Made by a program: the position numbers and the translations under genes | From: Flagellimonas okinawensis | GTDB taxonomy: Bacteria > Bacteroidota > Bacteroidia > Flavobacteriales > Flavobacteriaceae | Direction: 5' to 3' | Length of the DNA stretch: 64,000 nt | NCBI RefSeq assembly: GCF_029194005.1 | Contig: NZ_JARFVA010000001.1 | Coordinates: 744,001 to 808,000, forward strand | Notes under the pieces: model-generated | Seen by the model: only the letters and a program-made list of their open reading frames with translations | What the model was told of the DNA's origin: nothing | Databases searched by the model: none | Shown: one piece after another, positions 15,867-17,760 of the stretch | Layout of the letters: every line of letters starts with the position of its first letter | How positions within the stretch are numbered: position 1 is the stretch's first letter

Positions 15867-16964
15867 TTAATCAATTATAACTTCGAGACCCGCTTTATTA
15901 GCCTTATATTTTATTTTGGTCATCAAATCACAATAGCTCCAATTTCTTAATACAAATCCCTCCTCCTTAGCAATCTCAGTTTTTTCCTCCTGATTCAATA
16001 GTATAAGGGTTCCTGCTCTATGTTTAACACAAAAATCAATCAACCTACGGCTGTATACGTGCAAACGGTTATGGACATATTTACGTTCCATTTGACCAAG
16101 TCTGTCAACTGCCTTTAGTTTTCTTTTGATGCCCTTACCCGATTTGGAATATGTTGCCCCAATCTTTGCCCGTCTGTGCGCCGATTGTATCGCCAGTCTT
16201 CTGTATAAAAATTCTTCCTTTGTACCAATGGTAAGCCTTGCATTGCCAACCTTTACAACAATGGGATATTCAAGGGACAAAGAGGCTTCTGCAATAATCT
16301 CAGGTCTAAGGTCATGGTTTTCCTTTTCAATTTCGAATACCGCCAATAAGAAAATCTTGCCATCTTTTAGCTTTATGTGTGATGTACACAGCTTAGTCTT
16401 GCCATCCACTACCCGCTCCAACAATGTTCGTTTATCCGTAAAATCCTTGCCCAAGTAGGTTTTAAACGGAATCCGAAACAAACGAAAGCAAAAGGCTTTT
16501 TTCTCTGCGTTGTAGGATAATCCACTCATACCCTCCAAATCAAAAGGGAAGGCCATATCCCTTCTGAAATTTTTCAAAGAGCGTTCACCATTCCAGTATT
16601 CCGGTCTGTTCTTCTTGAATGATGAAATTAAGGCCTGGTTCAAATTGGACAATATGTTTGTGGGGATTTCTCCTTTAAAACGATCTGACACCACTCGATA
16701 GGTGGTGTTGATCTTGGAACGATTAAGGATTCCTTGTTCATCCTTCTTTTCATCAGCCAATTTATATTTTATATCCTCTGATAGATAAAAGAATTCCTTG
16801 ATCATTTCCTGAACATACAGATGGGTCACTATTAGGTTGGCCGCCCTAAAGCATCGGTTCTGCCACTGGTACAGTTTATCCAAGGCCTCTTTTTTCTCTT
16901 CTTTGGTAGGGAGATCAATCAGTATTTGGATCTTTCGAGTGAGTTTTAACGTTGACTTTTCCAT
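15867..16964 (-). CDS. Nuclease-dead Cas12f/TnpB-like RNA-guided protein
   Basis: A 365-residue protein with a Cas12f/TnpB backbone: an N-terminal helical/wedge part, a RuvC-like half starting near residue 225, the Arg/Lys-rich bridge EEFLYRRLAIQSAHRRA (250-266), a KAVDRLGQMERKYVHNRLH helix, and the conserved segment LRNWSYCDLMTKIKYKANKAGLEVI (339-363). The catalytic acids are lost. The DLG of RuvC-I is replaced (SLSLEYP, 228-234), the Glu of RuvC-II is replaced (TLILLNQ, 319-325), and the protein stops right after LEVIID, with no zinc ribbon or RuvC-III Asp. It starts 1 base after the stop of an ECF sigma gene. This matches the dCas12f-sigmaE pairs recently reported to drive RNA-guided transcription in Bacteroidota (recalled, not looked up). 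Confidence 0.85.
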   Translation of the reverse strand: MEKSTLKLTRKIQILIDLPTKEEKKEALDKLYQWQNRCFRAANLIVTHLYVQEMIKEFFYLSEDIKYKLADEKKDEQGILNRSKINTTYRVVSDRFKGEIPTNILSNLNQALISSFKKNRPEYWNGERSLKNFRRDMAFPFDLEGMSGLSYNAEKKAFCFRLFRIPFKTYLGKDFTDKRTLLERVVDGKTKLCTSHIKLKDGKIFLLAVFEIEKENHDLRPEIIAEASLSLEYPIVVKVGNARLTIGTKEEFLYRRLAIQSAHRRAKIGATYSKSGKGIKRKLKAVDRLGQMERKYVHNRLHVYSRRLIDFCVKHRAGTLILLNQEEKTEIAKEEGFVLRNWSYCDLMTKIKYKANKAGLEVIID

Positions 16965-16965
16965 A

Positions 16966-17760
16966 CTAGGCTGATTGTAATTGATGTTTTGCTTCCATTA
17001 GCCTGTATGCTATCATGAATTCCTGATGCACCTCCTTTTGGGAGATATTAAGTTCATTGGCTATTTCGGAAAAGGAACATCTTAGTTCGCAACGCATTTT
17101 AAGCACCTTTGCCTGCTCTTCTGTCATTTCGCCAGTAAACTTTACCTCATCCATATTGTTATTACTGGAATCGAGTTTATTTCCTTGATGAACGATGGTT
17201 TTAATATCTTCAATTGCCTCCTTAATCTCTCTACAGGTTTCATTGATGCCTTTTCCCATTGCTTTGGAAATGGCCTTGTACTGAAAACCATATTTCAAAC
17301 ACAGGTTGATTACGTGTCTTTTGCTGTCATCCAATAATGGCAGGACGCGTATGATACTTTCGAACTTCTCTTGTTCCCCTTCCTGAAGTTTAAAATTGTT
17401 ATTGTCTTCAACAGGGTCATACCCGACCATATAGTCTTGGTAATTCTCAAAACTCTCCAATGAGTGGACTTTCCTAAAAAACCTGTTCTTGGGGCGTGTA
17501 TAGTATGAAATGCACTCCCTTTTCATGACAAATCGCAGGAAAAAATAAATGTGCTTGGGTGATTCCAATGTATCTCTATGCACCCATAACTTCAAGAATA
17601 CATCCTGAACCAATGTTTCCACAACAAAACCATCATCGAGAAAACTCTTTCCTAGCCAGAAAATCTGTCTATTGTATTTGGTATAGATTTCCGTAAAAGA
17701 ATTGGCACAACCCTTTTTTAGGCGTTCATAGCATTCTTCTAGGTTATGATGGTTTTCCAT
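16966..17760 (-). CDS. ECF sigma factor paired with dCas12f
   Basis: A 264-residue sigma-70 family protein. Region 2 is at about 20-90 (FTEIYTKYNRQIFWLGKSF, LVQDVFLKLWVHRD, FFLRFVMKRECISYY) and region 4 at about 135-190 (LPLLDDSKRHVINLCLKYGFQYKAISKAMG). A second helix-turn-helix follows at about 212-256 (TEEQAKVLKMRCELRCSFSEIANELNISQKEV), making the protein longer than standard ECF factors. There is no anti-sigma gene nearby. The dCas12f-like gene follows after 1 base, so the two are co-expressed; by analogy with reported dCas12f-sigmaE systems, the guide complex would recruit this sigma factor to DNA. The divergent XRE gene and a palindrome between them suggest control by that regulator. Confidence 0.85.
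   Translation of the reverse strand: MENHHNLEECYERLKKGCANSFTEIYTKYNRQIFWLGKSFLDDGFVVETLVQDVFLKLWVHRDTLESPKHIYFFLRFVMKRECISYYTRPKNRFFRKVHSLESFENYQDYMVGYDPVEDNNNFKLQEGEQEKFESIIRVLPLLDDSKRHVINLCLKYGFQYKAISKAMGKGINETCREIKEAIEDIKTIVHQGNKLDSSNNNMDEVKFTGEMTEEQAKVLKMRCELRCSFSEIANELNISQKEVHQEFMIAYRLMEAKHQLQSA

Follow-up and report, generated by a model that had tools for sequence, protein, structure and literature searches.

A sigma factor gene standing next to the gene of a nuclease-dead Cas12f (dCas12f) raises the question of which genes such a pair could switch on, and how it would find them. We considered this for a locus of Flagellimonas okinawensis, in a window of 64,000 nucleotides (the whole stretch of DNA that was analysed), starting from a sequence-only reading that had described the pair as an RNA-guided transcription unit carried by a mobilizable element.

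The sigma factor and the nuclease-dead Cas12f

The sigma gene (16966–17760, reverse strand) encodes an ECF-type protein of 264 aa and is followed, after a single base, by a gene for a Cas12f-like protein of 365 aa (15867–16964, reverse strand). The coordinates, the strand, and the gap of one base were verified from the open reading frames, in agreement with the order proposed from the letters. The sigma protein exceeded the Pfam cut-offs for Sigma70_r2 (8.8e-8) and Sigma70_r4_2 (1.1e-6), and the Cas12f-like protein matched NCBIfam guided_TnpB at 4.6e-12, which is under the curated cut-off. In a sequence search of solved structures, residues 1–364 of the Cas12f-like protein matched PDB chain 9n9c_A, "Nuclease-deactivated Cas12f" (1.9e-187), and residues 11–262 of the sigma protein matched 9n9q_C, "RpoE" (9.3e-111); the entry 9n9q was found with both proteins. 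The earlier reading had named structure prediction as a check, with the absence of a Cas12f fold as the outcome speaking against it. The best Foldseek matches of the AlphaFold model were in fact 9n9m (chain A, 1.4e-40, 77% identity) and then 9n9c, with a TM of 0.45. As the model is poor (pLDDT 60.6), the identity of the fold depends mainly on the sequence. Titles among the Foldseek matches include "dCas12f-gRNA complex", and 9n9m is a "dCas12f-gRNA-DNA complex (partial R-Loop)".

We take the entries 9n9c, 9n9m, 9n9o, and 9n9q to represent the dCas12f-sigmaE system of RNA-guided transcription, which is reportedly the subject of papers by Hoffmann et al. and Xiao et al. from 2025. In this system, a G precedes the target (the TAM), the targets are in the leaders of susCD operons, and transcription starts ~46 bp past the target. 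Since both proteins of the pair have their matches within a single family of solved complexes (9n9c, 9n9m, 9n9q), the unit of sigma factor, Cas12f, and guide RNA (gRNA) is, by sequence, of the dCas12f-sigmaE kind and not of a new kind. The layout proposed in the sequence-only reading thus holds, and a structured gRNA-like sequence on the 3' side of the gene and near-perfect guide sites before susCD, both described below, agree with it.

The loss of the RuvC acids, also claimed earlier, stood for the aspartate and stayed ambiguous for the glutamate. In an alignment of 39 proteins, the window's included (L033, L041, and L043 were omitted, and the sequence of L042 stops after 184 residues), the position of the aspartate is Ser228 in the window protein, and is occupied by serine in 38 proteins and by threonine in one. 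The position of the glutamate is either N324 or inside an alignment gap, and its loss is therefore less certain. As had been proposed, the zinc and RuvC-III part at the C-terminus is absent: the protein stops before both, and so do the full-length relatives, which end near residue 365. An active nuclease was ruled out, as the catalytic aspartate is lost, the C-terminal part is absent, and no intact RuvC triad was found. In these features, and in having a single gRNA copy by the model R2 (see below), the window unit differs from the Type V-F Cas12f nucleases (8hr5, 7wju, 9nzo), to which its protein is related by sequence and by Foldseek.

Of 41 related loci, 39 encode a homologue of the sigma factor next to dCas12f, and the remaining two loci start at a contig end. 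The divergent regulator attributed to the unit is present as well: an XRE-family gene on the forward strand (17955–18344, 129 aa, HTH_3 8.6e-12), with homologues beside related copies.

The predicted guide RNA

A scan of related loci placed a predicted gRNA at 15774–15854 (reverse strand), just downstream of the dCas12f gene; neither this gRNA nor its target sites had been noted in the sequence-only reading. In 42 related loci from named genomes, the 3' side of dCas12f carries a conserved scaffold that ends in ATATACAAC or similar and is followed by the guide. By pattern, a gRNA-like sequence is present in 41 of these loci, and in the last one (L029) the stretch ends too soon. In the window, the scaffold occupies 15790–15854, with three stems predicted by RNAalifold on the alignment; for 8 of the 18 pairs, at least one of the 26 sequences has a change on both sides. 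Directly after the scaffold comes the 16-nt guide, GCGTGGGCTCTCTTAT (15774–15789), which is identical in 16 of the 42 loci, from several genera. The scaffold and the guide together predict a cognate gRNA gene beside dCas12f.

The covariance model of the gRNA (R2) found one copy in the genome, at C1:759775–759854, that is, 15775–15854 of the window. With one copy of scaffold and guide by this model, a CRISPR array was ruled out. In 8 of the 42 loci, the number of gRNAs ranges from two to six, and their guides differ. In the Leeuwenhoekiella copies L030, L034, L036, and L037, there are several gRNAs with different guides, many of which begin with GCGTG.

Guide matches in susCD leaders

We searched the whole genome (4.02 Mb, 14 contigs) for matches to the guide. 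Its own gene aside, exactly two sites, C8:212259 and C14:52721, match with no more than one mismatch. Both match 15 of 16 letters, and with 0.09 such sites expected at uniform composition against two seen, chance matches were ruled out at this level. Each site is preceded by G and lies in the leader of a susC/susD pair of the same direction, 590 and 577 bp upstream of its start, respectively; the pair downstream of the C8 site has Pfam matches to Plug and SusD. Both sites are surrounded by a conserved element of ~143 nt, which we call R1, and the target coincides with the 3' strand of its apical helix. A third susCD leader of the same genome, with the site at C7:289914, matches the guide in 13 of 16 letters (3 mismatches), also within R1. 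With up to 3 mismatches, however, the genome holds 10 matches in all, self included, versus 12 for the reversed pattern, which is the chance level. Therefore, only the presence of R1 points to this third leader as a target.

In the genus, guide matches with up to 2 mismatches were found in 63 of 71 genomes, among the matches listed, many of them due to chance or to gRNA genes. For reading, we picked from the matches listed 40 sites with 0–1 mismatch and beginning GGCGTG, which together with the two own sites made 42. All 42 fall inside R1. Downstream of 39 of them is susC in the same direction (two cut by contig ends), and three precede a sister sigma-dCas12f operon. Some other matches with one mismatch lie outside R1, for example, in L063, L080, and L084. 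In 39/39 susC cases examined, susC lies on the TAM-distal side of the target in R1.

The R1 leader element

The sequence GGGCGTG is invariant in all 33 aligned R1 elements, which puts a G directly before each of these targets. In this alignment, every pair of the outer helix is kept in all sequences (0/33 broken) by use of AU, GC, CG, and UA. We then counted pairs in 55 sequences, of which other genera contributed 29: pairing holds in 98.1% of cells, and 14 pairs have changes on both sides. The alignment of 55 sequences was fitted to the model, whereas that of 33 was not, and the result for the outer helix was the same. With the pseudoknot counted, the covariation score over the 55 sequences was 0.234; shuffles gave 0.084, and slid partners no more than 0.038. 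In the pseudoknot itself, TCTC:GAGA, two-sided changes are seen in at least one sequence for three of the five pairs, and 14 sequences break the fifth. This covariation favours a folded RNA, which R1 likely forms, perhaps being transcribed from an upstream promoter.

We rejected the possibility that R1 is a protein-binding dyad only, as its outer helix is 100% paired over the 55 sequences and 5/5 of its pairs are changed on both sides somewhere. A known RNA family was rejected too: searches against 4227 Rfam families gave no match at R1 in 10 own loci (E up to 0.1) or in seven loci (E up to 1). Among the matches listed in a literature search, no described susC leader RNA was on point. Near one R1, at 756–888 of L176 (reverse strand), there is a sub-threshold match to a group II intron, RF02003 (42.9 bits, cut-off 49).

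A folded R1 allows for a different action of the guide. The guide runs in the sense of R1, its letters are those of the 3' strand in the apical helix, and the 5' arm is imperfectly complementary to it. The gRNA could thus act on R1 RNA: it would pair with the 5' strand, open the fold, and alter read-through into susC, without an R-loop on DNA. The covariation, indicating a folded single strand, is consistent with that. However, the solved relatives are, by title, DNA complexes, and the closest sites of the guide of the sister system, considered below, are also mostly after G. We consider this action on the RNA very unlikely.

Upstream of R1, a pair of motifs resembling TTTG...TAnnTTTG is found in 39 of 41 leaders, as compared to 17.5 in shuffles; its position is variable, and it is weak evidence of a promoter. 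In many of the 41 leaders, there are also variable palindromes, operator-like by eye and differing between loci, just upstream of a TATATTTG-like box.

Such a promoter matters for another alternative, in which dCas12f at R1 blocks the native promoter or the elongation through the leader, with the sigma factor playing a minor part. TldR could serve as the precedent; to our knowledge, it has no sigma partner. TldR is a phage-encoded, nuclease-dead relative of TnpB that acts as an RNA-guided repressor (PMC13418256). What the two have in common is a nuclease-dead relative of TnpB in RNA-guided gene control; TldR represses, whereas the window unit has an adjacent sigma gene and is predicted to activate. 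A block at R1 could hit a native transcript started at the paired motifs. Still, we consider repression unlikely, given the sigma homologues that accompany dCas12f in nearly all related loci, the sigma orthologue that is a chain of the solved complex, and the uniform orientation of the targets towards susC.

The own genome has three R1 elements, each upstream of a SusC gene. The curated cut-off is exceeded by 18 SusC genes of this genome, of which one is partial and contains a stop; 3/18 carry R1 upstream. In the family, R1 was found in 62 of 349 genomes and 52 of 237 genera. We read 29 of the family loci, taking from the listed ones the best of each genome: 20 are before a susC homologue, three before a sigma-dCas12f pair, two before a pair of ECF sigma and FecR-like genes (by eye), and four before something else or nothing.

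Co-occurrence of R1 and dCas12f

In the family, dCas12f was found in 20 of 349 genomes, in 16 of them as a solid match (E below 1e-50). All 16 genomes with solid dCas12f have R1, versus 46 of the 333 others (Fisher test, p = 1.7e-13, or 9.4e-13 without the own genome). Counting all dCas12f, the number is 18 of 20 (p = 4.5e-13). In the genus, R1 is present in 16 of 17 genomes with dCas12f and in 23 of 54 others (p = 1.6e-4); in the genus genome G045, there are two dCas12f copies and no R1 was found. Since R1 occurs in 46/333 family and 23/54 genus genomes with no dCas12f found, it is not only a dCas12f target.

R1 also accompanies many of the dCas12f operons. Of 19 full-length copies in the family, 13 have R1 0.9–1.04 kb upstream of dCas12f, by length just before the sigma gene, and one has it at 1.8 kb. 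The R1 of the own operon is within 1 mismatch of the guide in L203, L206, L207, and L222, has 2 mismatches in L205 and 3 in L209, and is a worse match in L208, L211, L212, L215, L223, and L228. With the matches being so mixed, self-activation through the own R1 fits only some copies. The sigma gene of the window has no R1 upstream; the divergent XRE gene is there instead, as it is beside seven related copies (L002, L005, L006, L007, L010, L021, and L042).

The latter fact could mean that the unit is a passenger here: the guide would match R1 by descent from an R1-bound ancestor, and the copy would be silent under the XRE regulator. The absence of R1, unlike in 14/19 full-length family copies, and the presence of the regulator in its place fit this explanation. 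Against it, the frames and the scaffold are intact, and the same 16-nt guide is shared by loci from several genera. We hold a silent copy to be very unlikely.

In distant genera, the evidence for covariation of guides and targets is mixed, as several guides resemble no R1. At 1 or 2 mismatches, the search found no site for the guide of G378, and the guides of G326, G170, G398, and G370, along with that of one G164 copy out of three, do not agree with the R1 sites that we read in these genomes. In G214, the first nine letters of the guide GCGTGACATCTGACTT are those of the R1 variant GCGTGACATTCGCTTAT from the same genome.

A sister system and a second site in the leaders

Both proteins and a gRNA are common to the window unit and the solved dCas12f-sigmaE system, whose protein is 77% identical to the window's copy. 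Of the fetched loci, the nearest to the solved chain is L146 (8.8e-235), in genome G010, and its protein is likewise 77% identical to that of the window. L146 has a different guide, TTGTGGGATACACGCTAAC, and an R1 before its sigma gene; the window copy has neither, and differs further in being on a tRNA-Pro element and in having the XRE gene.

We searched seven genomes with the sister guide. The total number of matches was 50, close to the 44 of the reversed control. Only three non-self sites had 2 mismatches, G001:C33:15481, G003:C9:128154, and G037:C47:41006, and all three are in R1 leaders, 259–289 bp downstream of the R1 target. Several sites with 3 mismatches also lie in such leaders, for example, the own C8:212545 and G004:C1:3002484, although this class is at chance level in number. 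The genomes G003 and G004 have sister-guide sites without dCas12f, and in G010, which carries the sister system, no sister-guide site was found in the R1 leaders.

In a count without shuffled control, 32 of 41 distinct leaders have a pair of complementary arms at the second site, and compensating changes occur between these leaders. Between R1 and this site, 37 of the 41 leaders have a reading frame of 39 residues (38 in two) that ends in FDILFKKKPKNP(I/V) or close. This conserved frame, MGN...FDILFKKKPKNPI/V, is at 6412–6531 of L054 (forward strand) and in 36 other leaders.

The likely mobilizable element and its cargo

The sequence-only reading had taken the unit for cargo of a mobilizable element, and the boundaries that we found support this. 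The 3' end of a tRNA-Pro gene (ARAGORN, 22844–22918, reverse strand) contains the 13-bp sequence GTCGGGATGACTG at 22844–22856 (forward strand), and an exact copy of it is at 9070–9082 (forward strand). We read the former as the proximal and the latter as the distal attachment repeat. Adjoining the tRNA gene is a tyrosine integrase gene (21380–22663, reverse strand; Phage_integrase 1.3e-16). A MobA-like protein of the DUF5712 family, for which we assume the role of relaxase, is encoded at 19505–20527 (reverse strand; Pfam 7.4e-105). The gene at 20533–21117 (reverse strand) has no Pfam match; it is kept beside MobA in related elements, and we call its product MobC-like from this position. The exact repeats, the integrase, and the MobA-like protein together delimit an element of 13,787 bp that is likely mobilizable.

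Homologues of the MobA-like protein, 94–96% identical, are found near eight related copies (L002, L005–L009, L039, and L042), and for three of these (L005, L006, and L039) the fetched stretch contains a tRNA-Pro gene. This suggests that one element family spreads the unit of sigma factor, dCas12f, and gRNA, as it appears from these sequences.

The same element carries CBASS-like genes at 9410–12662, for a DAC-domain protein with DACNG/DACNH sensors, a Cap15-type 2TM effector, and a CD-NTase, as well as genes of a Type II restriction enzyme and a C5 methylase at 13190–15645, adjoining the gRNA gene. The protein encoded at 18479–19345, downstream of the XRE gene, has weak PADLOC matches to Stk2 (2.5e-10) and AbiJ (0.0016) and a sub-threshold match to DUF4145. 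Outside the 13.8-kb element, the region 5727–8848 has an AbiEi/AbiEii-like pair (by eye) and a second integrase-like gene, and is perhaps another integrated element. On the other side, 23936–32248 encodes a repeat protein of 2770 aa with the look of a gliding-type adhesin (by eye).

Proposed mechanism and implications

We consider it probable that the dCas12f-sigmaE unit, carried on a predicted mobilizable element, activates susC/susD operons of its host, acting at R1 in their leaders through RNA-guided transcription. The dCas12f protein would load the gRNA encoded downstream of its gene, and the loaded complex would form an R-loop on the DNA of R1, next to the upstream G, at the sites matching the guide in 15, 15, and 13 of 16 letters. 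The sigma factor, held at the R1 site, would place RNA polymerase there, and transcription would start tens of bp downstream, towards susC. All steps after target matching are inferred from the solved relatives. If the start is ~46 bp past the target, the spacing given above for this system, it would be near the 3' edge of R1. The guided transcript would therefore lack most or all of R1, bypassing any control by it.

A wider reading is possible, but, taken as a whole, we can propose it only tentatively and with some doubt. In Flavobacteriaceae, R1 may be a new leader element that forms a pseudoknotted RNA and labels the susCD and sigma operons of one regulon, with the guides of mobile dCas12f-sigma units copied from its most conserved strand. 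A start at its 3' edge would then yield messages that skip R1, and, with two sister systems reading two sites of one leader, the element would be a promoter switch that is programmable, addressed by RNA, and able to move between hosts.

What is new here, and open to testing, is the predicted regulon and R1; we do not claim that these are absent from the published dCas12f-sigmaE papers. For the dCas12f-sigma kind, the regulon is concrete: one mobile guide, three susCD leaders for 18 SusC genes in all, and a structured element with copies across the family. The covarying, pseudoknotted R1 raises the question of why DNA that an RNA-guided sigma factor is predicted to target should fold in the manner of RNA. 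If the proposed mechanism is true, horizontally moving elements would rewire the nutrient-uptake genes of their hosts by an RNA address, and not by a protein-DNA code.
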